The notes beneath the pieces are model-generated. The model made no database searches. It worked only from the letters and a program-made list of their open reading frames with translations, and was not told the DNA's origin. This document shows positions 15,101 to 50,872 of a stretch of DNA of 64,000 nt, one piece after another. Source of the DNA: Clavelina lepadiformis (Eukaryota; Chordata; Ascidiacea; Aplousobranchia; Clavelinidae); NCBI RefSeq assembly GCF_947623445.1, contig NC_135240.1, positions 20,150,001 to 20,214,000 on the forward strand, in the 5' to 3' direction. Each line of letters begins with the position of its first letter. Positions within the stretch are counted from its first letter, which is position 1. The translations under genes were made by a program, and so were the position numbers.

Positions 15101-18100
15101 AATGTTGGCTACAGCCCAAGCGCCGATCAGATGACCTACATTGACCCAACCACAAACGCTTTCTCCAGTCCTCTTATTTTGTACAGTCTTCTGGATGACA
15201 GCAGCAGCAGCAGCGACGACAACAACTTGCTTCCTATATTGGCTCTCACTGGAGGTCTTGGTGGTAGCATGGGGGGAGCTGGAATCGAATCAATTCTTCC
15301 ACTTCTGCTTTTGGGCAACGGCTCCCTCAGCAGCAACGAAGACCTCATCCAAATTCTTGCACAAACCGGTGCATTTGGTGGAACTGGCATCCCTGGACAA
15401 ACCAATCCTTTGGGATCCATTCTTCCTCTTCTCCTGCTGTCTGACTCAGTCGACAGTAGCTCGAGCGATCTCTTAACTCTGTTGCTTCTCACTGGATCTC
15501 AGACCTCGGGCGGGATGGGTGGTCTTGAACAAATCCTTCCACTTCTGCTTTTATCCAACAGCAGCTCTTTGTCGGGAGGTAATGATCTTCTCACCATCCT
15601 CCTACTCTCAGGTGGTCTTGGTGGTGCTGGAACCGACATGAACTCCATCCTCCCACTTCTTTTGTTGAGTAACAGCAGCGGCCTTGGTCTCGGTGATGAT
15701 ATCCTCCCTCTTCTCCTCCTCAGTGGAGGACTCGGTGGTACTGGAACCGACATGAACTCCATCCTTCCTCTTCTTCTTTTGAGTGACAGCAGTAGCTTGA
15801 GCGGTGACGATAACACTCTCATGCTGTTGCTTCTTAGCGGAGGTCTCAGTGGAACTGGAGGAATGAACTCCATCCTTCCTCTCTTGCTCTTGAGTGACAG
15901 TGGCTCCCTGTCTAGTAGCGACGATCTTCTCACTATACTCATGTTGAGTGGCGGTCTTGGTGGTACTGGCACGTCTGGTAAATTAACTTTAATCGATTAT
16001 ATTTGTTTTAGTTGAGTTGTTTATTAATCAGTGTTATTGGACAAGTGCTAAATGAATAAATGCAGCGTAATCTTATTTTTTACTAAACTAGTTTATCTTA
16101 TTTCAGATCTTGAACAACTTTTGCCGATTCTCCTCATTCAAGACTCCGGCTCCAGCAACGACCTCCTTCTTTTGTACGTTTTGGGATTTCTCCAATCTCC
16201 GGTATCAACACCAGTTGATCCATTTGCTGGTGAAATCTTGGGTTAACGCAGATGATGCTCTAACAAACTTAAATTATCGAAATTTGCTTTTTTTATTCGT
16301 TTTCGTTTTACGAATTTACGTTTTTAACAAGTGCCGAAGTCTCCATTCCGCCAGCTAATTTATTTAGTTCACCTCTTTTTCCATAACTTAAGCAACGTTC
16401 TTTTGCGCAAGCTGAAACCCAGACCTATAAGGTACGATGTTTGGTATGACTTGGCGTCATTCAAACGGAGGGATGCAGTGAACGAACGTGCGCTACCGGA
16501 ATGATAATGGAACGTTTTTAATTTTGTTGTCGTTCTTTATGCGTGCAAAGAAATAAAAAATCTTTTATTCTTTCCGTTTTAATCTGCTTGTCTGGGCTTT
16601 ATTAAACTTGATTGGCAATACAATTTTTTAACAAATTTAGGATATTTTGCAAAAAATTGGGGAGGTAAGGATGTTTTTTGTACTTTGATTTTTAACATTT
16701 AGTATGTTCTACACCTGTAAAGCATGATGCTATCCTAAATAGTTGTTTTAAAAATTTTATTGGTTCAGCGAAAACTTGTCAACCATATAGCTCGATTGAC
16801 GATAACTCAAAGTTTTGGGTTGAATTGAATTATTTTTGTTTTCCCCTGGGCATATTCGGCTAGCTCCCGTAATCTCAAAGAAAGTCGAAAATGACCCATT
16901 GTGTTGTAAACACGATGATGATTCGCTTTGTTAATGGATTATTTTGGGCTATGAGAAATTTGCTTTTAATTCTTTACCTTGCAGAATATAACATAAACAA
17001 TTAAAGCAATTAAGCTACAAGTGAGATAAAAGCAGTTAGGCAGTAGGTGATCGCATTGAAGTTATATAGTGGATGAAGACGATAATAATATGCCTTAATC
17101 GATTATATCAGTTGATGCTTATTTTCACTTATTTAATAGAATAACGTTATCACCGGAGTATGTTTAAAATGATCTGAATAGTTTCATCAAAGCAAAAGGT
17201 TGTCGTCTTTTTCCAAACTTACTTCTGGGACAGAATTATCAACGCCCTGACACTTACGTTTTATCCAGGTTTTACTGTGTAGCGTGTGTTGTACCTTTAC
17301 CGCTTTGCACATTATTCTTATCTTATCAGTCATCAATGCTTACGTCTAAGCTGTCACCCAGGTAGCCTATATAAGCCTTGCTATTGTTAATCGTCAGGGA
17401 TGGGTGATCGTTTTCTGTTTCAAATAAAACATTTTAACCAAAAATATTGTCTCTACCTGATGTGTTCCATGCAACGGAACACCGTTAGAAAGAATCGGTC
17501 TGGCAAGGACGGATGCAATAAATCCGTTACGTCTCCAAGTAGGGCCTTGGTCTTATTCCATCCGGTGATGATCTAATTCCAAAATTTTTGGTTTTGTCTT
17601 CTTCTCGATCTTATTCCTTTGATGAAATTCTTACACAGACGCCCAATAACTGGTGGTATTCGTTTTACCGTTATGAAATCAACACGAATCTACTAAAAAC
17701 ACCGCGTGTTAAGTGATTACTAAAAATGCATCTGTTATTTATCACTTTTGTCACGTACAGTCACGTGTTTATAGGCAAACTGTTTTTGGCGAGTTATAAC
17801 GAGCTTTCCGCCGTTTATTGTTACACAAATGTTTCGTTTATGAGGTAATTTTTAGAAAAACTTAACTATAGGATTGTAACATCTTTTTTCGGAAATGGTA
17901 AAACTTAAACAAATTAAATTTGATCGACAAACTGTAATTTTCTAGCACCCTTGCATGGAAGTGTACTTGACTTCGTTTTAATTTTTTTATCTTTTTTATT
18001 GTTTTTACTTGCAGCAACTTGAAGTGATTCGAGAATCAATTTAGAAGTATGAACAAAAAAATTTATGTTTCAGACTGTTTGATAGAGCTCGTTTGTCATT

Positions 18101-21100
18101 GTTTTTTGGCGAAATATTTGATACACGAGTTTTGAAGCATGTTTTTTGTGATATTATCACACGCTGTCAGACATTTAATTGTTTCATTTTTAGCAAACTT
18201 TTGCCAATATTTGATTTTTATTTTCTCTTTTTTAGCTATAGTTCTAAATTACTAAATTTCCTTTCACTTTTCCCAGTTTGTATAAAATTTAACTTGAAAA
18301 ACTTCTAAATCATGACAGGTTACACAGCATTGGCGTTAACATACGTTTTTCTTTGTATATATCACCATAAAAGCGACATGTCATCAAACTTTTAAGTGCC
18401 AGTGTATAGGTTGGGTAATTCTTGTATATTTTGTAGTGTAATGCCGTCTAAAAGGCTTCTTTTGTTTGCTTGAATGGTGCAAACTGTCAGTTCAATTAAC
18501 GATTCTTTTTTTATCAGTATTTCATTTTCAGGTGTTTTTTAAGTGTTGACTTAAGAAAATAACATTGTTAAACTTTCAGCTTTTGAGAACTTATACACGT
18601 GGTTCAAAGCCAATTGCGTGTTCGTCATGTTGTTTCGAGTATTGTGCGGCACTTGTAAATATATTGTGTGAAAAGTGCAATATTACATATACTGTAAGTA
18701 TAGGTATGTTCCACATATGCAGTTCAAAGCTATCAAATTTATTCAGTGTGACCATGTAAACCACCATGTTCAATTATGCCATAAATATATACTGTAATAA
18801 TTCGTTAATAATAACTTGAAACCGTCACTTACTAAGAATCAAAAGTTCACTACTAACTCGTTATCTCGCCGACCATATGGTTTGGTTTAACTTTTATTTC
18901 CGATTGTAGGTTCGGTAATAATTTTGAACGTTATATAATTTTTAACTTACCCGGATAGGATGAGAAACCGGTATTTAGTCTAAATTCATATACGTGAACT
19001 TTTTATCGAGTTTTTGCATCCGATGTATACGTTGAATAATACAGTATTCGGAATATAGAATTCAATCATTTTGCGCACGTTATAAACTGGATATTTTCCA
19101 ATATTTGTTCACTAAAGCGTTCGTTAACTACTTATTTTGTCCCATATAACGGCTTGCGTTAATGTGTAAATTTTATTATTTAGTGACAATTTGTTTTATA
19201 CCATCAGTTAACAAATTATCTTTGATGTTCTGTGATCTCTCTGTAGGTATCTTGCTACATGCTTGAGTTGTACAACGAAAAATTGGTGGATTTGCTCAAC
19301 GTGTCAAAAGGGAATGAAAGCAAACTGGATATTAAAAAAGTAAGACGAACTTTTGTAACATTTGCACTCGCTTTATTAACACCATTTAGCTATCGTCCTA
19401 TACGGTCAGATGTTTGATTTTTATTATACATCAGTTTTAGAACTTTTATTTAAACTTTGAATTTTCATGCAGGACAACAAAGGCATGGTCGTTATCAATG
19501 GAACTGAAATCGTGTATACTGAAAATGCTGATGAACTTTATAAAACGTTTTCTAAGGGCTCCGAAAACCGCCATACTTCTTCCACAAGTCAGTTAACTTG
19601 AAACGTTTTTGATTATCTTTCTGCGTAACTTATTCCTGCAATGTTGTAAACTCGCCTCTTCACCTACGGATATATGTCCTTACTGGGAAGTTAACCATAA
19701 ATACCGGCCGATTTACGTGATAAATTAGCGTGGTATCGTGCTGGTACTTACTATGCTTGTCATTTGTGCGAATAGTGTTTTATCGTGGGACAAATGTCTA
19801 GACTTTTAAAACAGCTTTGAATTGGTAAGACTTATTTATATTATTACTTTTTTTTATACTACTCTGTAAGCATTCAATAAAGCGAAAAATCACAAGAAAA
19901 GTTTTGTGTTCAAATAAAATGACCGTTTTAACAGAAATGAACGATGCCAGCTCTCGCTCACATTTGGTCGTTGGTGTTGTGATTGAGAGCACCAACTTGA
20001 CCACCGGTGCGGTTACTCGGGGTAAGCTGAGTCTGGTCGATCTGGCCGGAAGTGAGAGAGTGGGCAAGACCGGAGCGTCGGCTGGACAACTGAAGGTGGA
20101 CATTGTTTCATAGTTTTGTTTTCATTGACTGTGACAAATATGAATCATTAGAAAAACTACGTTTTAATTCTGATTTAACTATAGCAAACATAAGCGTTTG
20201 TAGCAATCTTGGATCAGTACTTTAAACAACATCCAGTATAAAGGCAAACGACCAGTGGGTCAGCGAGCTACCGTATAAGCTAAACAGAAAAAGTGAATAC
20301 GCTTTTTCTAGTTTAACTACAGTAATGCTTAGTGGATCGAATTTCATTAATCTCTATTTTAAATTTTAAAGGAAGCAAATTCTATCAACAAGTCCTTGTC
20401 CGCTCTAGGTGACGTAATATCCGCTTTATCAAGCGAACAGTCTTTCATCCCATACAGGAATAATAAACTCACCCTTCTCATGCAGGTGCTGCGTGACATT
20501 GTTTTTGCTTTTACCTGTTCCGTTTACTCAGAGTCTATTCTTCACGCTTGTTATAATTCCTTCCGCCTAATTTCAGGATTCTCTCGGCGGCAATGCAAAG
20601 ACATTGATGTTCGTCAACGTATCACCCGCCGATTACAATTCTGACGAATCAGCAATTTCTTTGACGTACGTATTAAAAACGTTACATTGTAACATGTATA
20701 ATATGCAATATTGTGACATATTTAAATTTGACTTGTTTTGTAGGACATATACGTTAAGTGACCCATCTTAAATTGTTAATTACGAAATATCTTGATTTGC
20801 CCAGACACTCCATCTTAATATCACTTTTATGATATGTCCATGGGCCCTTCATTATTTGGGTGAACCTACCGTGTAAAGAAACGTTTCGAACTTCACCTGA
20901 TTTTGTACGCTTTGATGTGCCGTGCAGCGTAATGCGCATCAACTACCCGATAGCTTTGTTTTAAAATAATTCAAATACCGAGACACGGCAACTCAATTGT
21001 GATCAGTTCGCGAAAGGTTACACGCACTACCATTTCGTACAGATACGCATCCCGAGTCAAACTTATCAAGAACGATGCGTCGAAGAATGCGGAGACGAAA

Positions 21101-22530: not shown

Positions 22531-22532
22531 AT

Positions 22533-22539
22533 TATATAA
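22533..22539 (+). promoter_or_regulatory. TATA box and untranslated first exon of copy 2
   Basis: TATATAA is followed about 30 nt later by a short presumed exon ending ACTGAG|GTAAGT (end 22596). The acceptor TTTCAG ends at 22773 and starts the exon carrying the ATG at 22788. Confidence 0.65.
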
Positions 22540-22787: not shown

Positions 22788-24971
22788 ATGAATACAATCT
22801 TCTACATCAGCGCTTTTCTTTCGATCGGTCTCGTCTCCGCAATGTCGCCAAAAAAACTCAGCGATGAAGACGTTGCCCGTTTAACAGAGCTTGCAAATAC
22901 CGTGGCCAGTGATACCAAAAATAAAATTTACGCACCCACAAGCTTACCGATTGGACCGGGTGAGTTTCTTTGACCAACTTATAGTATACTTTTTGATAAC
23001 CAGACCATTTTGTTCCTTCTAACCTTATTTGCTTTGTTTAATGAGAAAACCTACCAAATATAACGTAACACAACTTCGATCCGTTCCAACAGATTCATTA
23101 AAAATTTTCATTTTGCTTGTAGGTTGCATTCAGCACAGTGACTGTAAATTGACTTGGAAGTGTAGAAATATTGCAGGAGCTTTAATCGACATCATGAATC
23201 ACACTAGTCATGAAAACGATGTTGAAAATCTCAAGCGAAAGGCTAAGATTACCGGTAAAGAATGTATCAGGCCAATCGTTGAAGTGCTGAATGCTCATCC
23301 AAAAGATGCTGTTGCTGCCAGAATTGTTGAATTGCTGAACAAGCTCAACACAATTATGACAAACGCAGACGTTGATAAGTTCCAGAAGGTCTACCCCAAT
23401 GCATCTGACGTTCTAAAGTTTTCCGCAAATTTTGAAATATCAAATGCGCCGCTTGTAAGAGCAGCAGGTGAGTTGAAATTTCAGAAGAAAATTTGGTTTG
23501 ATAGAACTTAAAACGACATTAATCTGCATCCAATCCATTATTTGCTTTCAGATGTTGCTGTTGCTGATCCCCTTTCCAACCTTTACCTTCTCTTTGCTCT
23601 CAGGGGTCTTGATGACGTTTCACTCGATGCTGAAACGCTAATTCTTCTCTCTCTTTTTCAAACCCAACAGCCTGGAGTAAATTTCGGTTCCAATGCATTC
23701 AACAATCCTTTTCTCTTGTACATCTTGCTTGGAGATAACAGTGGTTCATCTTCAGATATTTTTCTTTTCTCTTTGCTTTCACAAGGAGGTTTGTTCCCAA
23801 CAACTGGAATTCCCCGCCAGAGCACAGTGATCGATCCCAACGCTAATTCATTTTTGTATCCATTCATTCTTTTGACCCTTCTGGATGGTGATTCTGGTGG
23901 CGACGACAATTTACTTTTTTTCTTTCTGCTCAGCGGAGGTTTGGGCGGAACCGGTACAGGAACCGGATTGGAATCCATCCTGCCTTTGCTTCTTCTTGGT
24001 GATAACGACCTTCTTGGCGGAGACGACAATTTACTTCTTATTTTGTTGCTTTCTGGAGGACTTGGTGGAACCGGTACGGGAACCGGACTCGAATCAATTT
24101 TACCCCTTCTGCTCTTGTCAAACGGCTCCCTCGGTGGTGGTGGTGACGATGACAACCTTTTGCTTCTTCTTCTCCTCAGTGGAGGTTTGGGTGGAACTGG
24201 AACAGGAACCGGACTTGAATCTATTTTACCTCTTCTTCTCCTTGATAATAACAGTCTTCTCGGTGGCGAGGATAACTTGCTTCTTCTTTTATTGTTATCT
24301 GGGGGTTTTGGTGGAACTGGAGTCGGAACCGGAATCGAGTCCATCTTGCCATTACTTCTCTTGTCAAACTCGTCACTTAGCGGTGGCGACGACAACAATC
24401 TTTTACTATTGCTTTTGTTTAGTGGGGGTTTAGGAGGAGCTGGCACAGGAGTCGGAACTGGGCTTGAATCTATTCTTCCACTTCTTCTCTTGACCAACAC
24501 TTCTGGTGACAACAATGACCTTCTGCTTCTACTTTTGGCAAGCGGGGGTTTTGGCAGTGATCTAAGTGGAACTGGAGGATTGGGATCTTTGCTTCCTCTC
24601 ATCTTACTCGACGTAATTGACTTTGGAGGTGACAGTGACCTACTCACCATACTTCTTCTCACTGGCGGGCTAACGGGTGGAACTGGTATGTTGTGGAAAA
24701 TTTAATACTAAAATTTAATAATGTTTTAAGCTCACATAAATTTATGGGCTTAGTTAAATTACTCATAGCTAGCGATTACTTGTCTTGTCAATTGTTTGTA
24801 AAGCAACACTAATATTACATTTGATCTGTTTTTAATGCAGATATCAACTCGTTGTTGCCACTTCTCCTTATCTCCGATTCAGGTGATTCCGACACACTTC
24901 TTCTTCTCTTTGTGTTTGGTTTCTTCCAAAACCCAACTACTACCAATCCCTTTGGCGACGTATATGGTTAA
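22788..24971 (+). CDS. Secreted Leu/Gly repeat protein, copy 2
   Basis: Exons 22788-22959, 23123-23467, 23552-24685 and 24841-24971 join in frame to 593 residues with phase-1 introns only. The signal peptide (MNTIFYISAFLSIGLVSA) is followed by KLSDEDVARLTELANTV. The Cys domain reads CIQHSDC...WKC...GKECIRP with the conserved HTSHEND between the third and fourth Cys. The repeat exon starts with the family block DAETLILLSLFQTQQPG and [14 protein letters not shown], then a GIPRQ motif. About six units of some 39 residues follow, each made of a Leu run, [21 protein letters not shown] and an Asp/Asn turn. The C-terminal exon ends DVYG. It is the first member of the array downstream of the kinesin gene. 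Role unknown. Confidence 0.88.
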
Positions 24972-25170
24972 TTGCGATTATGCCTTCAAATTATTTCCTG
25001 ATTTAAACGAGTTTAGGAAAAATCGTAATTTTACTGCGTTTTTTTTAAAAAGTATTTAATTCTTTCTTTCACCACACCTTTACTCGCATAACATTTCGAA
25101 ATATTTATAATAATGCATTGTTGTTATTGTTTTTTTGCCTTTCTTACATTGACATTGTTTATGCAAAAAC

Positions 25171-25236
25171 CGAAACCCAGACCTGTTTGGTACGATGCTA
25201 GACTTGGTGTGCAGCCCTGTAAGCGGAGGGATTACG
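25171..25236 (+). ncRNA. Conserved 3' UTR structured RNA element, copy 2
   Basis: It has the same CGAAACCC ... GGTACGATG ... CGGAGGGAT layout as copy 1. P1 (CCC/GGG) and P2 (ACC-TGTTT-GGT) are kept. P3 starts GCT and closes AGC, but its inner pairing is weaker than in the other copies. Confidence 0.75.
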
Positions 25237-25331
25237 GTAGATGAACAGAATTTCTGCTACCTTTGAGGGCACAATTTTAACAGTAAACCGTTTTTTACGT
25301 CTTTTACATTTGTTTATGCAAAAAAATTGCA

Positions 25332-25337
25332 AATAAA
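25332..25337 (+). terminator. Polyadenylation signal AATAAA, copy 2
   Basis: AATAAA lies about 95 nt after the conserved RNA element and about 360 nt after the stop codon. Confidence 0.6.
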
Positions 25338-27762: not shown

Positions 27763-30128
27763 ATGCTGAAAGCAATCGTATACATCACCTCCCTTCTTTC
27801 GGTCGGGCTGGTTTCAGCAATGGAGCCAAGAAAACTTTCTGATGAAGATATTGCTCGTTTAACAGAACTTGCCAACACCGTAGCGAGTGATACGAGAGAT
27901 AAAATTTATTCTCCAACATCGTTGAAAGTAGGACCTGGTAAGACATCTTGTATTTCGTTTGTTTTTTGATTGCAAGGCTTTTTTTTCTAAAATAGAATAA
28001 TGCGAAAATGCGAAAAAATGCGAAAATATTAGGACGCCCGGTATCAAAAAATACAAGCTACAAGATACAACATAACATTTGGTGTAATATCTGGTTTATT
28101 AAGCGTATTATTTGAAGTTTTAACGTTATAATACTTTATAAAGGAAAGTTTTAACACAAAAGGTTGAAATATTTAAAGTGTCCGGTGACAAGAAAAGCAT
28201 ATAAATTCACAAGAACTAAACACAGCAATCATCTCGTGTGCAGGGTGCATTCGACACACTGATTGCAAATCAACTTGGACATGCGAAGATATTCCCGCTG
28301 CTCTCAACGACGTCATGCGTTATACCACCCATGAAAACGACGTCATAAATCTAAGGAGAAAAGCCAAAATCGAAGGAAAAGAATGCATTAGGCCAATCGC
28401 TGAAGTATTGAACGCTCATCCAAAAGATGCCGTAGCAGACAGAATCGTGGAACTGATCAACAAACTCAACACGATAATGGAAAATGCAGACGTTGAAAAA
28501 TATCAACAAGTTTATCCCAATGTCTCTGAGATTCTGCAAGTTTCAGCGAAATACGAAGTCTCAAGTTTGTCGCTTGCAAGAGCATCGGGTGAGTTAAGAT
28601 GTAACGCATTTATAACTACCTCATAAAACCTTAACATCTTGGGTAAGCAAAAATTAATGACATCATTTTTATTTCAGAGGTGGCGCCCTACGATACTTTT
28701 TCCAACATTTTTCTGATTCTTGCACTCAGAGGTAACGATGGGGACGTTTCACTTGACGCAGAAACGCTCATTCTTCTTTCTCTCTTGCAAACACAACAAC
28801 CATCAGGATCAACAACGCCCGTTGATTTCGGCTCCAATATTTTCAACAATCCTATTCTATTGTTCCTCCTGCTTGGAGATAGTGGTGGTTCGTCCTCAAA
28901 TATCTTGCTTTTGCTTCTTCTTTCGCAAGGAGGAGGTGGTTTGTTTCCAACTTCCAATGTTCCCCGTCAAGGAGACGTTGCTTTCGGCTCGAATAACTTA
29001 CTATTGCCATTGATTCTTTTGACTGCTTTGGATGGTAGTGGTACAGGTAGTGATAACACATTACTTTTGCTTTTCCTGACGAGTGGAGGCTTTGGAGGAG
29101 CTGGCACAGGAACTGGGACTGGAATTGAATCTCTGCTTCCGATTCTTTTACTTTCTGATAGCGACATTCTTAACGGCGATGATAACTTGCTTTTGCTTTT
29201 GTTGCTCTCTGGAGGTTTAGGAGGTGGAACTGGAGGCGGGATAGAATCCATTTTGCCTCTCCTTCTCTTGTCAAACTCCTCACTTGGCGGTGGTTTAGGC
29301 GGCGACGACAACCTTTTGTTGTTATTATTGCTCAGCGGAGGTTTAGGAGGAGGAGGAGGAGGATATGGCACAGGAACTGGAACTGGAATTGAATCTCTTC
29401 TTCCGATTCTTTTACTTTCTGGTGACGGTGGTTTAGGCGGCGGCGACGACAACCTTTTGTTGTTATTATTGCTTAGCGGTGGTTTAGGAGGGGGTGCTGG
29501 CACAGGGGGAATAGAGTCAATTCTTCCACTTCTGCTTTTGTCAAACTCTTCACTTGGCGGTGGTTTAGGCGGCGACGACAACCTTTTGTTGTTATTATTG
29601 CTCAGCGGTGGTTTAGGAGGGGGTGCTGGCACAGGAGGTATAGAGTCTATTCTTCCACTTCTGCTTTTGTCAAACTCCTCACTTGGCGGTGGTTTAGGCG
29701 GCGGCGACGACAACCTTTTGTTGTTATTATTGCTTAGCGGTGGTTTAGGTGGAGGAGGAGGATATGGCACAGGAACTGGAACTGGAACCGGGGGAATAGA
29801 TCCTTTGCTTTTAATCCTTTTACTTGGTGACGGTCTTGGATCAGGCACCAATGATCTTTTACCAATTCTTCTCCTTAGTGGTGGACTTGGAGGTGGTTCA
29901 GGTATGTATCTCTGATAAGTCCCAATACATATTATTTTACTTATATATTCATTTATAAATATATTTATTTATTAATGCAAATGTTACATTTTAGGAGATA
30001 TCAACTCAATATTGCCACTTCTCCTCATCACTCAATCCGGTGACAACGATATTCTTCCTTTGCTCTTCCTTACCGGCTTTTTCCAGAGCACACCTGTCGG
30101 CCAAGATCCATTTGCAATTCAAGGATAA
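27763..30128 (+). CDS. Secreted Leu/Gly repeat protein, copy 3
   Basis: Exons 27763-27937, 28244-28588, 28678-29901 and 29995-30128 join in frame to 625 residues with phase-1 introns. The last exon has a TTAGGAG double acceptor, so it may start at 29998 and lose one residue. The signal peptide (MLKAIVYITSLLSVGLVSA) precedes KLSDEDIARLTELANTVASD. The four-Cys domain reads CIRHTDC...WTC...GKECIRP. The repeat exon is the longest in the array, with near-identical units built of [28 protein letters not shown] and GGGLGGDD. The protein ends in Gly. It is very close to copy 4 in coding exons, promoter and 3' UTR, so the two are a recent duplicate pair. Function is unknown; secretion is supported. 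Confidence 0.88.
29076..29892 (+). repeat. Internal tandem repeats of the copy 3 repeat exon
   Basis: Units of roughly 120 nt recur with near-identical DNA. For example, TCACTTGGCGGTGGTTTAGG and CCTTTTGTTGTTATTATTGC each return several times between 29280 and 29740. Identity at silent sites implies recent unit duplication or conversion. Confidence 0.8.
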
Positions 30129-30316
30129 TTAAGATAGTCTCCAAATACTTTTTAACTGCAGCCAACATAAGAATCTTTCCGCATATGTTCGATGTTATTT
30201 AAATATTTTCTTTTGTACTTTAAACTCATTTTTTTCTGTCTTCCATACTTTTGTGTGCCACTTATTCATTTACAATTACTTTCTACTTGCAAATATTCTG
30301 CATTTTGGATAAAGGT

Positions 30317-30382
30317 CGAAACCCCGACCGGGTAGGTACGATGCTTTACTTGACAGTTATGTCACGTAAGCGGAGGGATGCG
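30317..30382 (+). ncRNA. Conserved 3' UTR structured RNA element, copy 3
   Basis: CGAAACCCC, ACC-GGGTA-GGT, ACGATG, a long P3 and CGGAGGGATGCG. P3 pairs GCTT with AAGC and TGACA with TGTCA around GTTA, a stronger hairpin than in copy 1 with different bases. Confidence 0.8.
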
Positions 30383-30483
30383 ACAACCAAACGCAGTTGC
30401 GAAATTCTATCAATAACTAAGTAACCAAAAATATTGCGAATTCTGTACTTTTTAAAACATGGAATTTTGCGTGTTGTTTTTTC

Positions 30484-36781: not shown

Positions 36782-38956
36782 ATGCTGAAATCTATCGTAT
36801 ACATCACCGCCCTTCTTTCAGTCGGGCTGGTTTCAGCAATGGAGCCAAGAAAACTTTCTGATGAAGATATTGCTCGTTTAACAGAACTTGCCAACACCGT
36901 AGCGAGTGATACGAGAGATAAAATATATTCTCCAACATTGTTGAAAGTCGGACCTGGTAAGACATTTTGTATTTGTTTGTAAAATTTGTATGAACAAACT
37001 CGAAATACTCAGTTTGCTGCTCCATTTATCATTTACTGAAGCGCTGTTTTGGAAGTTTAGATCTTATCTAGATCAACAGTATAAAATGACTTATTAAAAT
37101 AAAATTTCAAAGTCAAAATGCCTTTATTAAGCTCCTTAGAGACAACATGAAAAGTTAAAAATTTTGCAAGAACTAAACACAGCAATCATCTCGTGTGCAG
37201 GGTGCATTCAACACACTGATTGCAAATCAACTTGGACATGCGAAGATATTCCAGCTGCTCTCAACGACGTCATGCGTTATACCACCCATGAAAACGACGT
37301 CTTAAATCTAAGGAGAAAAGCCAAAATCGAAGGAAAAGAATGCATCAGGCCAATCGCTGAAGTATTGAACGCTCATCCAAAAGATGCCGTAGCAGACAGA
37401 ATCGTGGAATTGATCAACAAACTCAACACGATAATGGAAAACGCAGACGTTGAAAAATATCAAAAAGTTCTTCCCAACGCGTCTGAGATTCTGCAATTTT
37501 CAGCAGAAGTTGAAGTCTCAAGTTTGCCGCTTGCAAGAGCATCGGGTAACTTATATTTATAATAAGTATATAAGGTCTATAACACACTCCAATATCAAAA
37601 TTTAATGTGGTCATTTTTATTTCAGAGGTGGCGCCCTACGATTCTTTTTCCAACATTTTTCTGCTTCTTGCACTCAGAGGTAGTGATGGGGACGTTTCAC
37701 TTGACGCAGAAACGCTCATTCTTCTTTCTCTCTTGCAAACACAACAACCAGGATCAACAACGCCAGTAGATTTCGGCTCCAATATTTTCAACAATCCTAT
37801 TCTATTGTTCCTCCTGCTTGGAGATAGTGGTGGTTCGTCCTCAAATATCTTGCTTTTCTTTCTTCTTTCGCAAGGAGGTGGTTTGTTTCCAACTTCCAAT
37901 GTTCCCCGTCAAGGAGACATTGGTTTCGGCTCGAATAACTTACTATTGCCATTGATTCTTTTGACTGCTTTGGATGGTAGTGGTACAGGTAGTGATAACA
38001 CATTACTTTTGTTTTTCCTGACGAGTGGAGGCTTTGGAGGAGCTGGCACAGGAACTGGGACTGGAATTGAATCTCTGCTTCCGATTCTTTTACTTTCTGA
38101 TAGCGATATTCTTAATGGCGATGATGACTTGCTTTTGCTTTTGTTGCTCTCTGGAGGTTTAGGAGGTGGAACTGGAGGCGGAATAGAATCCATTTTGCCT
38201 TTGCTTCTCTTGTCAAACTCCTCACTTGGTGGTGGTTTAGGCGGCGACGACAACCTTTTGTTGTTATTATTGCTCAGCGGAGGTTTAGGAGGAGGAGGAG
38301 GAGGATATGGCACAGGAACTGGAACTGGAATTGAATCTCTTCTTCCGATTCTTTTACTTTCTGATAGCGACATTCTTAATGGCGATGATGACTTGCTTTT
38401 GCTTTTGTTGCTTTCTGGAGGCTTAGGAGGAGGTGCTGGCACAGGAGGAATAGAGTCTATTCTTCCACTTCTGCTTTTGTCAAACTCCTCACTTGGCGGT
38501 GGTTTAGGCGGCGGCGACGACAACCTTTTGTTGTTATTATTGCTTAGCGGTGGTTTAGGAGGAGGAGGAGGATATGGCACAGGAACTGGAACTGGAACCG
38601 GGGGAATAGATCCTTTGTTTTTAATCCTTTTACTTGGTGACGGTCTTGGATCAGGCACCAATGATCTTTTACCAATTCTTCTCCTTAGTGGTGGACTTGG
38701 AGGTGGTTCAGGTATGTATCTCTGATAAGTCCCAATACATATTAGTTTACTTATATATTCATTTGTTTATTCATTTATAAATATATTTATTTATTTATGC
38801 AAATGTTACTTTTTAACAGATATCAACTCATTATTGCCACTTCTCCTCATCACTCAATCTGGTGACAACGACAATCTTCTTTTGTTATTCCTTTTTGGCT
38901 TCTTGCAAAACACACCAGGCGGACAAAATCCACTAGTGTTTCCGACATATGGATAA
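36782..38956 (+). CDS. Secreted Leu/Gly repeat protein, copy 4
   Basis: Exons 36782-36956, 37201-37545, 37626-38711 and 38820-38956 join in frame to 580 residues with phase-1 introns. The signal peptide MLKSIVYITALLSVGLVSA and the following residues are almost those of copy 3. The Cys exon (CIQHTDC...WTC...GKECIRP) differs from copy 3 at only a few positions. The repeat exon has fewer units than copy 3 but the same unit types, including SDSDILNGDDD turns and GGGGYGTGTGTG linkers. The C-terminal exon ends FPTYG. An in-frame upstream extension is open through the 5' intron, but the signal peptide fixes the start at 36782. Role unknown; presumably exported and structural. Confidence 0.88.
38025..38702 (+). 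repeat. Internal tandem repeats of the copy 4 repeat exon
   Basis: These are the same roughly 120-nt units as in copy 3, with fewer copies. Shared silent-site identity with copy 3 suggests recent duplication followed by unit gain or loss. Confidence 0.75.
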
Positions 38957-39145
38957 TAATGAACGTGCTCAAACAAATACCTAAATTTTAAGCATTCTAC
39001 ATACCCATTTTTTGCATATGTCCGATGATATTTAAATATTTTTTGTACTTTAAACTCAGTTCTTGTGTCCTCTTTATTTTTCCGTGCCATTTATTCATTT
39101 ACAATTATTTTCTTCTTGAAACTTTTCTGCGGTTTGGATAAAGGT

Positions 39146-39211
39146 CGAAATCCTGACCAGGTAGGTACGATGCTTTACTTGACAGTAATGTCACGTAAGC
39201 GGAGGAATGCG
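39146..39211 (+). ncRNA. Conserved 3' UTR structured RNA element, copy 4
   Basis: CGAAATCCTGACC ... GGTACGATG ... CGGAGGAATGCG. Compared with copy 3, the P1 strand CCC is TCC and its partner GGG is GGA, a compensating double change that keeps the helix. P3 pairs GCTT/AAGC and TGACA/TGTCA around GTAA. Confidence 0.8.
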
Positions 39212-39411
39212 ACAACCAAACGCAGTTGCAAAATCTCTTCCAAAAGTGATGGTAAATGTGTTGTGCTTATAAATGTAGAAGTTTGATATTGGCGTTGAAT
39301 GTAAATATAAAGATTTGTGTTTATCCAAAAGATTTGCTTTATTTTTATTTAGGGAAAATACGCATGCTAGTATGTATTTCAATACTTTTTCACATTTATA
39401 GTGTCCACGGC

Positions 39412-41700: not shown

Positions 41701-42191
41701 TGTTCCGTAAACTGGATGGTGGACAATTTTTGTGACACGTTTAGTCTTTTGATCTGAGTGTGTTTTTATCAACTCAAGGTTTATTCACTACTTGCAATAT
41801 CAAAAATCCACTTCTGTCATTATGCACTATTGCTACACACAGTATAGACATTAATATCCGTCGACAAGGCCATGCTTTCATCAGCACCGGGTTATTTGTG
41901 TATTTATTTGTTCTTTTTTGAGCCCATTGAGTTTTTTTCAAATTTTGTGTTATCCCTCTTCAGTTTCCTATACCGTAAAATGTAAAAAGCAGTGGCATGT
42001 TTAGCGTAAAAACATAACACTTGTTTCCTTGAGTACTGATTTTTTTTATATGATATTATATATTTTGCATTTTCGCTAAAAACCGTAAAATATTAAATTA
42101 TATTTTTGCGGCTAAATATATATATATACATAGGACAACAAATGCAATAATACCAAAAGAATTAAACACGGCATTTCAATTGTAAATTCAG

Positions 42192-43348
42192 ATTCATATC
42201 AGCTAAATTCAATGTCAAACCTTCTACTCAATTTGGCTCTCAGGCGAAGCGGCAGTTTACCATTCGATGATGATATACTTATTCTGCTTATGTTGTCACA
42301 ATTGCAAGGCGGATCAACAAACTTGGGATCCAATGCTCATAACAATCCTTTCCTCCTTTACGTTCTCTTAAACACTGACGATTCGTCATCTTCATCCGAA
42401 TCTGACATTTTTCTCTTTTTCTTAGTATCCAACACATTCGGAATAAAAGGAGGAACGTCTTCGTTATTTGATGCTTCGTCCAACGCTTTTCTCTCACCTC
42501 TTCTTCTCATGACTCTCTTTGACTCAGACACAGGAGGTAACGATAAGATGTTGCTCTATTTTGCCTTTTCGAGGGCTTTGGGTGGAGGAAATCAGAGTAA
42601 TTTTAACTCGTTTCTTGGTTTATTATTTCTACACGATGACGCTGGTTTGGAGAAGTATCTTCCATTTTTGCTGCTTAACGGGGGAGATTTTGATACTCAT
42701 GGAGACAGTGCTTTAAACTTGCAAACACTGCTATCTTTATTTTTCTTTGGTAACTCAACCTCTTGACAAAGATATTTTGCCTTTACTGATATTCGGTGGA
42801 AATTTCGGTCAATCAAAAGATTCCAATCAATTAGATCCGCTCCTATTATTGTTTTTACTAAACGACCAAAAACTTTTTAATGGCGACAATAAGCGATTTC
42901 TTTTTGATATTGTTGAGTGGGTTATTCACTGGTAGAAACAACCAAGAAAATTTCGGATCAACTCTACCTCTTCTGCTTTTTTCCAGTTTTAGTAGTTCTG
43001 ATGAACTCCTACCACCCTTGCTGCTTAACGGTGGTGTAGGTTTTGGAGACTCGCAGCATACCTTAAATCTCCTATTTTTCTTCTATTTGATCGATCTGAT
43101 TCCAAAAAGGATGACAACAACCTCCTTTGGTTATTGTTGCTCAGTGGAGGTCTGGGTTCTTTTGGGGTTAGGTAACGTGAAAAACAAGTTTCATTATTGA
43201 CATTTTATAGTTTAAATTATAACTTAATATCTATAACAATATATGTATCAGTTTTCGAAGTTTTTCGCCCATCGTGTGATATTGTTTTGCAGATATCACT
43301 TCAATCTTGTCCTTCCTACTGATAAAGGGATTCTTCTGGCTCAGATAA
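42192..43348 (+). pseudogene. Copy 5, broken member of the secreted Leu/Gly repeat family
   Basis: A phase-1 acceptor (TTCAG, ending 42191) leads into the family repeat-exon start: SNLLLNLALRR, ILILLMLSQLQGG and [14 protein letters not shown]. The frame then stops at 42764-42766 and continues in other frames (about 42747-42935 and 42880-43200), so at least two frameshifts are present. A degenerate last exon (43293-43348, DITSILSFLLIKGFF) ends early, without the usual C-terminal part. The signal-peptide and four-Cys exons are absent upstream, where the virus-like fossil lies. No 3' RNA element is seen. This is a truncated dead copy. Confidence 0.8.
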
Positions 43349-43915: not shown

Positions 43916-45118
43916 TTATGCTGACAAAAAGTGTCGCTTCAAAGATTTTCTTCTATGTGTGGTATTGGGAAGATCTCTTTTTAAGCACCAACAGTAATCT
44001 GCAAGCATGTTTACGTCCCAGTATCCTTGGTACCTTTCTTCCATATGGCGAAGGTCTTGGTGGAATCTCTCTCCCTGTTCTTCGCTGTAGTCACCACAGT
44101 TGTCAGGAAAGTAATCTAAATGCGAACTCAGAAAGTGCATTTTCACAGACATCCGGGCTCCAAGGGATTGAAAGCTTCCAAGCAGCTCTTTAACCTGTGC
44201 TTCATAATCAAGGCTTCTATGCTTTCCAAGGAAGTTTGAAATTACTACTCGAAATCCTGTCCATGCTCTTTTTTCTACTGCACTCATGTGTGCAGTAAAA
44301 CCTTCGTCTTTCATCAGCTCACGGATCTGTGGCCCATCAAAGACTCCTGCTCGTAGCTTCGCTTCAGAGATACGGGGAAATTTCATTTGTAAGAACTTGA
44401 AGGTTGGGCCATCTTTATCAAGTGCTTTGGTATAGTTTTTTATGAGACCAAGTTTAATGTGGAGAGGTGGCAAAAGAATATTTTGTGGATCAACTAAGTA
44501 AGCAAATTTGACATTTTTAAAATGTAAAAAATGTACTTTGGTCTGCATCCCATGTGTCTTGTTCACTTGCTTTGCTCTCTGCAGATGAAGAACACTCCAT
44601 TTCACTTATTTCTCCAGGTGGTTCTGGAACAGGAATACCAGGGCCATGTGGTACTGGTTTCATGGCTGAAGGAACATCAGGGTACTTCACATGTTGTTTG
44701 TTCTTCCGGTTTATTCCTAAAATGAAAAAGAACACTGTTACTCTTAAATCAAGCAATTAATGAAAATGCCTCCATACAGTGCAAGTATCAGCATACCTTG
44801 TAAGTTGGTCATGCAAAAATAACAATCAGTGACATGGTCTTTTCCTTCTCTCCATACCATAGGAATACTAAAAGGAAGGCTCTTTATTTTCTTTAGGCTC
44901 CATAATCTCAAGTTTTCAACGCATGCTCTACAACATATATGCGGAGCAAATGCCTTGTCCTGATCGCCTAGTTTTACTCCAAAATACGCATAATATGCTT
45001 TCTTAACAAACTGCGTAATTTTTGCTTGGCGACTGCGCAGGGTGACCTTGCCACATATGTAACAGAACCTGTCTGGATCATTTTTGCACTTTCTCATTGT
45101 ACTGTAAAAACAAATCAT
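43916..45118 (-). mobile_element. Transposon-like two-exon gene copy with N-terminal zinc-binding region
   Basis: The 5' exon (45118 to about 44815) encodes Cys pairs (FCYICGKVT, HICCRAC, CYFCMTNLQ) typical of a widespread, multi-copy invertebrate protein family that I believe is transposon-borne. A second exon begins near 44710 (INRKNKQHVKYPDVPSAMKP). Further along are the family's C-terminal blocks PLHIKLGLIKNYTKALDKDG, RAGVFDGPQIRELM and SEEQGERFHQDL. The long central region I remember for the family is not seen, so this copy looks incomplete. The element class is not established. It lies opposite in strand to the repeat-protein array and is probably a later insertion. Confidence 0.6.
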
Positions 45119-48100
45119 CTAAACTGCACACTAAACTAGCCTGTAAAAACAAGTTCAGATGTTTAACTTTTCAAGCACCAGGTGCATTCGTTATGTTCTT
45201 CTCATTGTGATGTCACTGAAGTTTCATCAAAACTTAATTCAAAAGCTAAATCATTTTTATGACACCACAAATCTCAATCGCAAACGCTGAAGTTGTCAAA
45301 AATTTCAAATGCAATTTGCCAAAAAACTAGACCTGATTGAAGAAAACGGATAACAGTTTTGGATTCAGCATCAAAAAGTACAATAAGAACCGTCAATACT
45401 TTAGTAACCTAAAAATTAACGCAGCACAGTGAATTGACTGTTACTTTTATATTTATTTGGCCTTTTGCAGCAGACTGCCGATCAAGACCCATTTGTTGCT
45501 ACCAAAGTTTCCGGTTGATAGCTATAAACAAAGCAGTGGTGAATTTGCTTTATGTAACATTAGTTCATGCGTTTTTAGAATAACTTCTGCACGAAACAAT
45601 AAAGTTTGTTGCATCTGTATATGCAGTTCTTTTTGCTGAACACATGTACGCAATACGCTGTGCGCCTGTCCCTGTCGTTGTCAACGAACTACGAAGCTAT
45701 AATGTAGAGCATTCATTTGGGCGTTTTCCTTCAGATTATAGTATACTATATTACACTATTGATTTAGGAAATGCAAAGATATAAAACTTATTTTATTTCC
45801 TTTCGTTATATATAGGTTGCATTTTCACTAAGTTTAAGCTGCAAGATAAAATGTTTAGCAGTGAACTCGCCGCATAGAAAAAGCCTTTTGAGCATATAAC
45901 AACATGCGAATTTTGCGTTTTTATTTTTTGTCATGAAAACAAAGATTAAATGTATAGAGTTTAAACTCACATATACATATATACAGTATAGTACTTTTTT
46001 GTATATGAATATGGTTTAACCGCAGTTACATGTATTATACTTATTTGATCCTATGATGCCATCGATTGGAAATTTCCAAACGGTTTGGTTCCGCGTTGTG
46101 TTTTGTGATGATGATTGATAGGTTCGTGTTATTGCCAGTTATTGTATGATTCCGCATAAACTTTTAAGAGATTAAGGATAATCCAACGTTTTATTAAAAT
46201 ACCACAGCAATGCTTTAATGCCTCCAGCAATGAGGTTTAACGTTCTGGTCATGAATGACAAAGGAGCAAGCATAAAGATATATAGTTATAAGCAAAAATA
46301 AGTGCAAGCTCTTGAGATGGCATACGTGGTTTGTAACAAAACATTTTCACAACAAAGTCGAACGAAAACGCTCACTCTTGTTGAAAGTAGTACGTGTCGG
46401 ATCACTTTATGACGGAAACTGATTAAAAGCTATAGAAGGCGTAACGGCTTCTATATTTTTGTCAAAACATACTTTCTAATTACCTTCATGCACTCAATGA
46501 TTTTCAACGACGCACGACAATGATATGGTGATAAAATGACCAAATACAACAAATGTTTATATGAATGGTAAACCTTACAGCTCGTCTCTATCCAGCAACC
46601 AAAATATTCTTTTGGAGCCAGTATAATCGTCGTCACTCACACGCTTTTTTTTGGTCGCCTTTTCGGTGTTCGACAAAAGTAATCAAAACGTCAAGCCGGG
46701 TCTAATGCAATATGTGTTTGATTCAGTTGATGGCATCTGAATATATAACATCTACACTTGAGTAATTTTGGACAAAGAGAAAAAATAAAAAACTAGAAAA
46801 AATGCATAAATTGCTGTGAAACGGTATAGTGCAAGGTACAACAAAACGTTTTTGACGAAAATTAACACGTTGTTCACGAAGAGTATTCATCGAAACCTTT
46901 TTACTAATACCAGTACACAAATGATAACAATCAACAACACATAAAATTTGATAATTGTTCAATAATAAGTTGTTATACGTAACAAATTATGCATTTCATC
47001 CTGAATAACTATTTTACAAATATTCTATCAGCGCGTTTTCTCTTGACACAGTAAAAACAGTAAAGCAGATACTGCATTAAATACATGTCATGTAAACTGG
47101 TTGGGAGAGAAAAGCAGAAATCTTGTTCCAAAGCGCCACCTTGCGGTAACGAAAGAAGTGGGCATTTTATCACTAGCATCTTGTATTGTTACACATATTT
47201 GATGCGTGGCTTGTATTGGCTTTATACAATCTTAGGTCATGCTTCAAACATTATATTTAAATACTAAACGCTTTATTTTGATATACATAAATGAATGTAA
47301 ACCTTCTCTGGCAATAAACATTTCAACTCTGTATATGATCAAATCATTAGGTTTGTCTTTTGCCCATTTTCTGAACTGAGTAGAACTACACTACTTTAAC
47401 TATAAAATGAAACTAAAAATGAAAAATATTGCTTGTGTTTACGTAAAGACTGTGTTGTGTTGTATTGTGTAAACATTGTGTTTACACACATATTACGGTA
47501 AAGATTTATATTACTTTCATGCGCCCATAATGTTTCTTTTTGATGCAAACATATTCAGTGTATAAAGTATTGTTAACATTTGAAGTACTGTTTCACTGTA
47601 ATGAAACATGGTTCATGATGAAAAATTACTACATTTTCGTAAAGAAGTTTGAAATTCTGGATACTAAAATACTGACTTCAGTTTGCTGCTATAAGGCGTA
47701 GCTATGCGTTCAAGATGTTATATTGGCTTTACGCGAGTATGAAAAAGGAATGAAGCAACAGAACTTTCAAATTTCGGTAGTTTCTGATAAAATCATGTTT
47801 GGCAAGAAAACTTGTTTTGTGTGAATGGATCACATTAACAGAGCGACGACAAACCGCAAAATAATACCTCATGGACTACTTGTTACATTACGCATAAACA
47901 TACCTAAAGTTGCAAAAAGTAAACCCATTTCGATGCAATTACATGCAACTTTTACAAGTTCATTGTAAAATGGATGTTATATATTCGCAGCAGTGTCTAT
48001 TGCAAAACTGTAAGTATAGTAAGTATAAGCCATAGCAAACTGTAACTAGTTAATTGCTACACGACAGATGGTATCAGACGATTTAGTATAAAATAACCTT

Positions 48101-48299
48101 AAGGCTACGTTATGTGATGATAGCTGGTGATAGTCACCGTATGTGTAAAAAGTGTTTTAATGACGTGATTTGCTAATAAAAAGGATCGTTTAGAGACAGG
48201 AAGTAAATTACTTTTTTCCGCTAACACAAAAGAAAAAAGAATAATTTAATTGGCAGTAATAACGACCTTGGTACAAAATCGTTTATTGAAAACGACCAA
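45119..48299. other. Spacer between the transposon-like gene and copy 6
   Basis: About 3 kb of AT-rich DNA. I see no supported gene, RNA or clear mobile element. Confidence 0.45.
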
Positions 48300-48307
48300 T
48301 ATATAAG
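48300..48307 (+). promoter_or_regulatory. TATA box and untranslated first exon of copy 6
   Basis: TATATAAG is followed by a presumed noncoding exon ending TACGAAAG|GTAAGA (end 48383). The acceptor TTTTAAAG, ending 48528, starts the ATG exon. Confidence 0.65.
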
Positions 48308-48546
48308 TCCAAGATGTAGATACATAAAATCATTCCAGTTAGATATTTTGGGAGCTCATAGAAAAGAAGCAAACTTACGAAAGGTAAGAATTCTTTTGTT
48401 GAACATGCTGGAAATCGATATGAAACTTGTATAAATAATAACACACATCTGTAAGATAAATGTTAAAGGGTAAATGAGTGGAAAATCAAAACGAAACGTT
48501 TTATTAAAGATGAGATTTTATTTTAAAGGTTTTATCAATAGCCAAA

Positions 48547-50679
48547 ATGAAGATGTTTATCGCTATCACAACTTTATTATTGATTGGAGCTTGTTCTTCG
48601 ATGAACGTGCCGAGAAGGCTCACCGAATCAGAGATTTCTTACTTGACCGAACTTTCTCAAAGCTTATCAAACGACTTCAGCAACAGGATTGATGCTCCCA
48701 TCACAACCCCTGTTGGACAAGGTATTTTATTTCTGATATTTCCTGGTATACGGTACATACTGTTTTGAGAGTTTAGCTATAGCTCCACCTACAAAAATAA
48801 ATCGATTGTAAAGTAATTTTTTATGTTTTTAGGTTGCTTTTTCGATAGCAACTGCAAGGGCACCTGGCGATGCGAAAATATAGAAGGAGTTTTGAATGAC
48901 GCTTTCACCCACACAACCCATGAAACCAATTTGCAAAGGGTTAAGCGCAAGGCCAAGATCAGTGGAAAAGAATGCATCAGACCAGTCACTGATGTGTTGG
49001 ACGCTTATCCCAAAGATCAGCTTGAGAATAGAATCGCCGAGTTACTGGCGGAGTTGAACGAAGTAATGGAAGGAGCTGATCTTAAAAAGTACGGCGTAGA
49101 AAGCAATGAGACGCTTAAAGCTACCCTTTCAAGCGCAAAGAATTTGAATGTACCAATCACAAGAGCAGCAGGTCAGTGGCCACATTATTTTAAACAAACA
49201 ATAAGTGTATCACTTTGACATGAAAAGAGCAAAACGGGAACATAATATTATCTGTTTTTAGAAATTGGACACACCGACGCCTTGTCACAAATCTTTCTTC
49301 TTTTGGCTGTCAGAGGGAAGGATGGTGATATATCTATGGATGAAGACATAATCTCTTTGTTATATTTAACGCAAGCCCAAGATCCACATGGAGTTGATTT
49401 CGGATCAAACGTCTTCAATAATCCTTTTATGCTGTATACCCTTTTAAGTGGATCTAAATCTGCTTCGAAAATCTTGATCTTTTCTCTTTTTGCTAATGGA
49501 AATATTGGTTACCCTACTCATGACACTAGTACAAGACATGGGGAAGTGACGCATCCACAAACCCAAGGCTATGATAACCAGTTTGGCGCATTTTCCTCTC
49601 CACTTATTTTGCTCAGTCTATTGGGCGACGATGGAAAAAACAGTAACGACGATCTTCTATACTTTGCCCTTACTTCCGGATTTGGCGGCTCCGGCTATGG
49701 TGGTGGTCAAGGTGGCATTAGCGACATTATTTTGCCGCTCCTCTTCTTGAAAGATGACAAGAGTGATATTGGGGATTTACTGTTTCCTCTTTTGCTTTCC
49801 GGGGGACTCGGAGGTGGAAACGCCGGCGGTTATGGCGGAAACGATCTTAGCTCTTTGTTGCCTTTGTTTTTCCTGAGCAACAAAACCGGCGATGGTCTTG
49901 GCGACATTCTTCCTTATATTTTGTTGTTCGGAAATGGAGCTGGGCACGGAACTGGATACGGAGCAGGAGGAGGAGGCCTCGATTTGCTTTTGCCGTTACT
50001 CTTGACTAAAAATAATACAGATTTCAAAGATATTCTTCCACTCTTTCTCTTTGGCGGACTCGGTGGTGGAAATGGAGGCGATATCAGTTCTATTTTACCA
50101 TTCCTTCTTTACGGTGATGGTAATCTCACTGACATTTTTCCATTGCTGTTCCTTTTTGGTGGTCTTGGAGGTCAAGGGTATGGAGACCATGGCAGTCAAC
50201 CACATGGTAGCCAACCACATGGTGGAATAAATCCGATAATGCTTCTATATCTGTTGGACCTCATTGATCTTGGACATGGTAATGGAAATGGTGGCAAAGA
50301 TTTATTTCCCTTGCTCTTTCTCACCGGGGGTTTTGGAGGAGGTAATATTGTGTGGATTACACATTGTTAGATAATTTCCTTTGTAATACTAATTTTAATT
50401 AAAACAAAAAAACTTACAAATGACGAATAATTTGTAAATTTCTTAAAAAGGCTAAAAACGATAAACTGATTGGAGACTTTGTTGGTAATGAAATACTGTA
50501 TGTTTTTAAACTAAAAATTTTCCATTTAAGATCTTCAAAGTATCCTTCCATACATCGTTCTCATGGGAGATGGAACGAAAGACACTCTTCCACTCATATT
50601 CTTATTAGGATTCTTGAACAAAGGACCGCAAGTTTATTCTCAACCTGATCCGTTTGGATCGCCCAATATTTACGGCTAA
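48547..50679 (+). CDS. Secreted Leu/Gly repeat protein, copy 6 (divergent)
   Basis: Exons 48547-48721, 48833-49171, 49262-50341 and 50531-50679 join in frame to 580 residues with phase-1 introns. The signal peptide (MKMFIAITTLLLIGACSS) precedes [20 protein letters not shown]. The Cys domain reads CFFDSNC...WRC...GKECIRP. The repeat exon keeps the family opening (DFGSNVFNNPFMLYTLL) but its units are more varied and more charged: ILPLLFLKDDKSD, GGLGGGNAGGYGG and SSLLPLFFLSNKTG. It also has a small HGSQPHGSQPHGG insert found in no other copy, and uses RHGEV where others have PRQG. The C-terminus is NIYG. A different-frame ORF starts upstream at 48474 but is a shadow. It is the most diverged complete copy in the window; function unknown. 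Confidence 0.87.
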
Positions 50680-50807
50680 ATCATTTCAACGAGTTAATGC
50701 CGCAGCCACATTCAATATACTGCCTTCTTACGTTCCGCCATTTGCTTAATCATTCCTATTTACAAAGTGTACATGTAATTTTATTTTTTATCGTCACGTT
50801 CACCAAT

Positions 50808-50872
50808 CGACGCCCAGACCGGTTAGGTACGATGTTCTTGGCTAATTCTAATGCCAAGAGCGGAGGGATGCG
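50808..50872 (+). ncRNA. Conserved 3' UTR structured RNA element, copy 6
   Basis: CGACGCCC, ACC-GGTTA-GGT, ACGATG, P3 and CGGAGGGATGCG. P3 is TCTTGGC paired with GCCAAGA, a 7-bp helix with bases quite unlike those of copies 1, 3 and 4 but in the same place. Confidence 0.8.

Follow-up and report, generated by a model that had tools for sequence, protein, structure and literature searches.

A conserved branched RNA element in the 3' untranslated regions of five paralogous genes of the ascidian Clavelina lepadiformis

In a 64,000-nucleotide stretch of the Clavelina lepadiformis genome (assembly GCF_947623445.1, contig NC_135240.1, positions 20,150,001 to 20,214,000; hereafter the window), a tandem array of seven complete paralogues and one broken paralogue on the + strand (14104-60342) carries a branched RNA element of about 95 nt (92-99 nt with its outermost helix, P-1) in the 3' untranslated regions (3'UTRs) of five of its complete genes. 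The element is almost certainly a functional RNA structure, and we read it, with a probability of roughly 0.72, as a cis-acting, protein-read 3'UTR element of five genes for apparently secreted proteins. Paralogues are numbered p1 to p8 in array order, p5 being the broken gene, and the copies of the element are named after the genes that bear them (1, 2, 3, 4 and 6). Structured 3'UTR elements are already known; to our knowledge, a branched one with the signature of a kink-turn junction (k-junction) is new in animal mRNAs, and we know of few animal 3'UTR elements that are branched, have a fixed core and are common to several genes. None of the titles listed in our literature search, made mostly without subscription papers, describes this element.

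The element, its fold and its history

A preliminary description of this DNA had placed five blocks past the stop codons of five of the seven complete paralogues, each with two fixed halves. A search of the window with the pattern GGTACGATG-N15..45-CGGAGGRA returned exactly those five places, all on the + strand; 100 shuffled versions of the window gave no match. The first half, GGTACGATG, is exact in all five copies. The second, which had been given as CGGAGGRATG throughout, is exact in only four, because copy 2 reads CGGAGGGATT and differs in the last letter. The described setting, past the stop codon and before the poly(A) signal, is found in all five cases, the distance from stop codon to core being 126-197 nt and that from core to the first AATAAA or ATTAAA 73-199 nt. 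Because it lies between the stop codon and the poly(A) signals, the block would be part of the mature mRNA. Each of p1, p2, p3, p4 and p6 bears one copy. A covariance model (R1) built from the five copies, as had been proposed, and run with filters off matched just these five places in the window, at 75-89 bits, with the next match at 10.3 bits; by this search the element is absent from p7, p8 and the broken p5. Copy 4 is a near-duplicate of copy 3, and the five copies therefore represent four independent sequences.

The consensus fold was computed with RNAalifold from the alignment with 30-nt flanks only, with no structure supplied. It consists of a three-way junction of helices P1, P2 and P3 plus an outer helix, P0, with 20 pairs in total, nine of which show changes on both sides. 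Unbiased folding thus recovers the architecture that had been drawn by eye, a three-way junction whose core is fixed and whose stems covary. P1 (CCC/GGG, compensated to TCC/GGA in copy 4), P2 (ACC-N5-GGT) and, in copies 1, 3, 4 and 6, P3 have the sequences given for them earlier. Over the whole structure, 94 of 100 cells are paired, compared with 26-46% when the partners are slid by one to three columns, and none of 500 shuffles matched the observed percentage paired, the number of both-side-changed pairs, the number of cells so changed or the covariation score. The consensus energy of -17.04 was reached by none of 1000 column shuffles that keep gaps and variability (mean -6.15, standard deviation 2.35; z -4.6). 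When copy 4 was left out, 8 of the 20 pairs were still changed on both sides, and P0, P1, P2 and the base of P3 stayed in the consensus, with somewhat altered pairing higher up in P3. The strand test counted five G.U cells and no A.C cells; the RNA strand is the mRNA strand. The stability of P3 exceeds that of shuffled sequences in copies 1, 3, 4 and 6 (p 0.010, 0.0035, 0.005 and 0.0005, respectively), the P3 of copy 6 having nine pairs. A hairpin GGTCG..CGACC, seen in copies 3 and 4, was rejected by eye as a common feature, as copies 1, 2 and 6 are unable to form it.

P0, which the preliminary description did not mention, comprises four pairs enclosing the block. Its arms read GCUG/CAGU, ACCG/CGGU, GUCG/CGAC (twice) and AUCG/CGGU, so that 20 of 20 cells pair, and three of the four pairs vary on both sides. 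In a scan of four-pair flanking helices over 256 offset combinations, just the P0 offset paired fully in more than one of the four independent copies; it did so in three, the exception being copy 2, where the helix is shifted by one extra base. Outside P0, the flanks of each copy can form a further helix, P-1, centred on GUUY/RAAC (imperfectly so in copy 3). In copies 1 and 2 it is a perfect helix of 6 and 7 pairs, respectively; in copy 3 a small interior loop interrupts its 9 pairs, and copies 4 and 6 each have 10 pairs and a bulge. Summed over copies 1, 2, 4 and 6, its energy is lower than that of shuffled flanks with p 0.0002; the values for the single copies 1, 2, 3, 4 and 6 are 0.024, 0.20, 0.015, 0.0095 and 0.005. 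The spacers between P-1 and P0 vary (10, 6, 6, 6 and 3 nt), and because these unequal spacers leave the 5' arm unaligned in the MAFFT alignment, P-1 rests on per-copy pairing. In a table of cross-pairings between copies, which speaks against P-1, just the upstream arm of copy 1 has its own downstream arm as sole best partner. The upstream arm of copy 2 pairs better with the downstream arm of copy 6, that of copy 6 pairs better with that of copy 1, and copies 3 and 4 tie, their downstream arms being identical. As the spacers differ and the arms of some different copies cross-pair, P-1 is pairing potential rather than a helix proved by covariation, and it is probably real.

Among the bearer genes, synonymous divergence (dS) ranges from 1.4 to 5.1, or could not be computed (three pairs), in 9 of 10 pairs; the exception is p3/p4, recent duplicates with a dS of 0.064. 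For the same nine pairs, the elements reach local alignment scores of 26-51, against a null of about 400 random pairs with a 95% value of 20, a 99% value of 23 and a maximum of 35. All nine lie above the 99% value and six lie above the random maximum, and the 110-nt flanks on each side score 13-22, near background. This is an island of similarity of about 70 nt amid lost neutral sequence, with paired changes in its helices, and therefore points to selection as RNA; both the fold and the selection on it are well supported. Similarity among the copies tracks the gene tree where that tree is resolved (p3 with p4). The sole well-supported grouping is p2(p3,p4), and a clade of p7 and p8 is not rejected (p-AU 0.177), so that presence of the element takes one change if p7 and p8 are sisters and two on the best tree, gain and loss being indistinguishable. 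The element would have been inherited along with the genes and maintained by selection on its fold. The array also offers a natural test, with seven complete neighbouring chordate genes of which five bear the element and two do not.

When the copies are folded singly, the minimum-energy fold of the core is the three-way junction in copies 1, 3, 4 and 6, where the junction holds 0.73, 0.53, 0.55 and 0.57 of the constrained ensemble. Several results weigh against our interpretation. In copy 2 alone the junction takes a share of just 0.004 and lies 3.4 kcal/mol above the best alternative fold, and the P3 of this copy does not outperform shuffled sequences (p 0.41). When the core was extended by 24 nt upstream and 18 nt downstream (to about 111 nt), only three of the five copies (3, 4 and 6) had the complete structure, P-1 among its helices, as their best fold; copy 1 retains P-1, P2 and P3 with P0 and P1 replaced, and copy 2 forms P-1 and P0 without the junction. 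Against shuffles, single copies show modest energy z-scores (-1.0 to -1.9), and the count of further pair types is unremarkable, as 78 of 500 shuffles reach it; the shuffles disregard the gene tree, and the reverse strand also gives a consensus fold, although a weaker one (-12.9 vs -17.0). In addition, three of the nine element scores fail to exceed the random maximum of 35, and 4 of 18 flanks score at or above 20, the 95% value. Finally, the copies are few (n=5, two of them near-identical), and two complete paralogues, p7 and p8, do without the element. Protein binding or a kink-turn (k-turn), both of which lie outside the energy model, could shift the fold balance.

Junction architecture and possible functions

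The links of the junction are (A/C/U)G between P1 and P2, ACGAU between P2 and P3, and GGA between P3 and P1, and they are invariant in all five copies save for the first letter. At the foot of P3 the strands start G-A-U-G and end C-G-G-A, which, if read as a k-turn, would give G.A, A.G and U.G followed by G-C. The letters for a G.A and then an A.G facing each other at the helix start are the same in 5 of 5 copies. Facing GA dinucleotides at the base of P3 had been suggested as possible sheared pairs, and together with the adjoining U.G pair they yield what appears, at the level of sequence, to be a k-turn signature. According to the k-turn review PMC5061560, a GA/AG step flanked by U.G adopts the sheared pairing of k-turns, and a G at position 3n allows k-turn folding in Mg2+. 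According to passages of PMC4005666, a k-junction has an additional, third helix across from the loop, and junctions of this kind are held likely to be widespread. The element would fit this topology if P2 serves as its C helix and P1 as its third, with a link of two bases. Alternatively, P1 could be the C helix, with a C-G at its end, in which case hairpin P2 would occupy the loop strand, a form without description in the passages of PMC4005666 on k-junctions.

The k-turn itself faces difficulties of its own. The simple three-base k-turn loop is not present, and binding of the L7Ae type is uncertain for that reason. Since the GA/GA letters never vary, covariation lends the k-turn no support, and we roughly estimate that chance alone would place GA opposite GA somewhere in a few percent of junctions. 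We consider the chances that the junction is k-turn-like, or a k-junction, to be evenly balanced.

Starting from what is directly supported, namely the sequence, its place, the paired changes and the selection, we infer the following course of events in the mRNA. A long stem, composed of P-1, P0, an AAA/AUG internal loop and P1, would open into the three-way junction, whose arms would be the short invariant hairpin P2 and the freely varying hairpin P3. With GA opposite GA beside U.G at the foot of P3, a k-junction may bend these arms sharply together. The junction would then serve as a docking site for an RNA-binding protein, which might set the stability, translation or location of these mRNAs as a group. 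The first candidate would be a kink-turn binder of the L7Ae family. Kink-turns are sites of L7Ae-family proteins (PMC5061560, in part), and GADD45alpha, a member of that family, is discussed as a kink-turn binder with post-transcriptional effects in passages of PMC6549022. That the element acts in cis in the mRNA is likely; that its binder is of the L7Ae type is a good deal more doubtful. A true k-junction here would be the first in an animal mRNA as far as we know, and would provide a handle on the reader protein. The covariance model can be used at once in seeking the same fold in other tunicates and beyond.

Known RNA classes were searched with the 4227 covariance models of Rfam 15, the whole window at E<=5 and copies 1, 2, 3 and 6 alone at E<=10. 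The window gave two weak matches, both away from the element, and the four copies gave just three matches to long non-coding RNA models at 8-11 bits, far below the cut-offs. No credible Rfam 15 match for the element was found in the window or in those copies.

The best-surviving alternative, though an improbable one, is that the 3'UTRs host a small RNA gene, snoRNA-like (small nucleolar RNA) or another processed RNA, for which the mRNA is just the carrier. The compact closed fold and long outer stem would suit such an RNA, and the junction ACGAUG/CGGA resembles the box C/D k-turn layout, in which box C is RUGAUGA and box D is CUGA. However, ACGAUG and CGGA stand in 5 of 5 copies and match neither box, Rfam has no snoRNA match at the element, and outside the junction there is no long stretch constant enough for a guide. 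A bolder proposal, to which we give only a slim chance, is that the element represents a new class of self-cleaving ribozyme, or a natural k-junction riboswitch of animals, that switches the secreted-protein family on or off.

It is very unlikely that the element is a self-cleaving ribozyme whose cut in the 3'UTR would remove the poly(A) tail, although the size, the three-way junction, the roughly ten fixed junction letters and the variable stems are what is commonly seen in small ribozymes. Rodent Clec2 genes offer a precedent in the 3'UTR, with hammerhead ribozymes that reportedly combine a three-way junction and a fixed core with a cut that removes the poly(A) tail. Nevertheless, no Rfam ribozyme model matched copies 1, 2, 3 or 6 at E up to 10, the hammerhead core (CUGANGA / GAAA) is absent from the alignment as judged by eye, there is no mark of a cleavage site, and a k-turn would explain part of the fixed letters.

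It is slightly less probable still that the element is an RNA roadblock or stability fold that halts 5'-3' decay in the manner of exoribonuclease-resistant RNAs (xrRNAs), to which a three-way junction of similar size in a 3'UTR presumably bears some likeness. Flavivirus-type xrRNAs are defined by a pseudoknot of a junction hairpin loop with the 3' flank. For such a pseudoknot we found no consistent place, since helices between the P3 loop and the downstream 30 nt reach just 3-4 bp at offsets that are unrelated across the five copies. An origin without selection as RNA, from a mobile repeat or short gene-conversion tracts among neighbouring paralogues, has equally little to recommend it. Gene conversion is common in tandem arrays, and p3 and p4 are recent duplicates; yet copying does not create the paired changes of compensated stems, and conversion should homogenise the flanks as well, which are near background. 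As for a mobile repeat, all five copies lie in the same place in the 3'UTRs of one gene family and on one strand, with none elsewhere in the 64 kb.

Least probable of all is a ligand-sensing riboswitch resembling the thiamine pyrophosphate (TPP) riboswitch, which in plants is likewise found in 3'UTRs: although the TPP riboswitch is a three-way k-junction (PMC4005666, in part) and the internal loop AAA/AUG between P0 and P1 occurs in three of five copies and is partly kept in the other two, the Rfam TPP model matched neither the window nor copies 1, 2, 3 and 6, and the secreted repeat proteins show no visible link to a small ligand.

The gene array and its surroundings

The proteins of the family look secreted; their genes have one exon for a signal peptide and another that bears cysteines, and encode long glycine/leucine-rich repeats of the GGLGG... 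type. Pfam returned zero matches for the repeat exons of p1, p2, p6, p7 and p8, the five paralogues submitted. The best protein matches of the window are to Clavelina lepadiformis itself, in line with the tunicate assignment; others were found in Phallusia, Oikopleura and metagenome data, partly via low-complexity repeats, and the array perhaps encodes a tunicate protein family of unknown function. LOC143462851, LOC143462866 and LOC100183754 are named in no paper that our literature search found.

Table 1. Genes of the array and copies of the RNA element, in positions of the window.
Feature	Positions	Strand	Details	Basis
p1, signal-peptide exon to stop	14104..16246	+	stop TAA, ending at 16246	tblastn of Clavelina proteins
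p2	22788..24971	+	stop TAA, ending at 24971	tblastn; matches P0005, LOC143462866
p3	27763..30128	+	stop TAA, ending at 30128	tblastn; matches P0003, LOC143462851
p4	36782..38956	+	stop TAA, ending at 38956	tblastn; matches P0006
p5	42134..43200	+	broken, without element	open reading frame pieces; no covariance-model match downstream
p6	48547..50679	+	stop TAA, ending at 50679	tblastn
p7	53795..56044	+	complete, stop TGA, 3'UTR without element	tblastn; P0002
p8	57366..60342	+	complete, stop TAG, 3'UTR without element	tblastn; P0001
Copy 1, 3'UTR of p1	16395..16489	+	core 16411-16479; P-1 arms 16395-16400, 16484-16489	R1, 82.9 bits
Copy 2, 3'UTR of p2	25156..25247	+	core 25169-25238; P-1 arms 25156-25162, 25241-25247	R1, 78.9 bits
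Copy 3, 3'UTR of p3	30298..30396	+	core 30315-30384; P-1 arms 30298-30308, 30387-30396	R1, 89.2 bits
Copy 4, 3'UTR of p4	39127..39225	+	core 39144-39213; P-1 arms 39127-39137, 39216-39225	R1, 88.1 bits
Copy 6, 3'UTR of p6	50793..50889	+	core 50806-50874; P-1 arms 50793-50802, 50879-50889	R1, 75.3 bits

All five bearers of the element end in TAA, whereas p7 and p8, which lack it, end in TGA and TAG; this may be chance. Counted by eye, the repeats of p4 in the window (37607-38725) are more numerous than those of the database protein P0006, and those of p8 (58978-60135) are fewer than those of P0001, and repeat number thus seems to vary between assemblies or individuals.

Other features of the neighbourhood were noted along the way. 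Kinesin-motor-like exons on the + strand, recognised by eye from translations, flank p1 on both sides (11522-20644), and p1 may be nested within a kinesin gene of the same strand. Tropomyosin-like exons, recognised in the same manner, lie on the - strand at 61944-62195. A 229-amino-acid open reading frame without a Pfam match adjoins the broken p5 (43916-44605, - strand), and we take it to be something resembling a mobile-element remnant. Between p1 and p2, a weak match to the SNORD29 model (17114-17195, - strand; 30.1 bits against a gathering value of 48; E 0.067) may reflect a genuine box C/D snoRNA or may be fortuitous.

The bare pattern of the element also occurs in 55 stretches of viral contigs. 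These score at most 18.3 bits (E 0.065) by the covariance model and have varying spacings, as expected by chance, and were rejected as relatives. A viral contig coding for a relative of the Phallusia protein holds none of 23 pattern matches, and a search of phages and plasmids for DNA similar to copy 3 gave no match at E up to 1.

Likeness to known RNA systems

Among the closest counterparts are the k-junctions of the TPP riboswitch and of Haloarcula marismortui 23S rRNA (J4,5 and J94/99), as described in passages of PMC4005666. Like these, the element is built of three helices, one of which begins with GA facing GA, and has a short single-stranded link before the GA; taking P2 for the C helix and P1 for the third, it would have the TPP topology. 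By contrast, the TPP junction, in the same passages, has a loop of four where the element has a two-letter link (AC), an extra A between G and A that the element lacks, and a C.G beside the GA pairs instead of U.G, and its sequence is otherwise different.

The k-turns of box C/D RNAs and of U4 small nuclear RNA share the GA-U-G / C-N-GA layout with the element, which differs from them in having a hairpin or a third helix in place of the three-base loop. The non-bulged strand of the U4 k-turn reads CCGAGGC, and CGGAGGG of the element resembles it. Selenocysteine insertion sequence (SECIS) elements also lie in 3'UTRs and have a k-turn-like GA core that is bound by an L7Ae-type protein, but they have no three-way junction, whereas the element has the 3'UTR position, presumably a similar GA core, and a three-way junction. 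A SECIS function is not supported: the five bearer genes stop at TAA, the database proteins P0003, P0005 and P0006 (p3, p2 and p4) contain no selenocysteine U, and the Rfam searches gave no SECIS match.

Like the Clec2 hammerheads, the element is a three-way junction with a fixed core in an animal 3'UTR, although it does not have the letters of their core. The histone stem-loop and the iron-responsive element are short conserved folds in several mRNAs, and both are single hairpins. The element is likewise a short fold common to several mRNAs, but it is branched and about 95 nt long.

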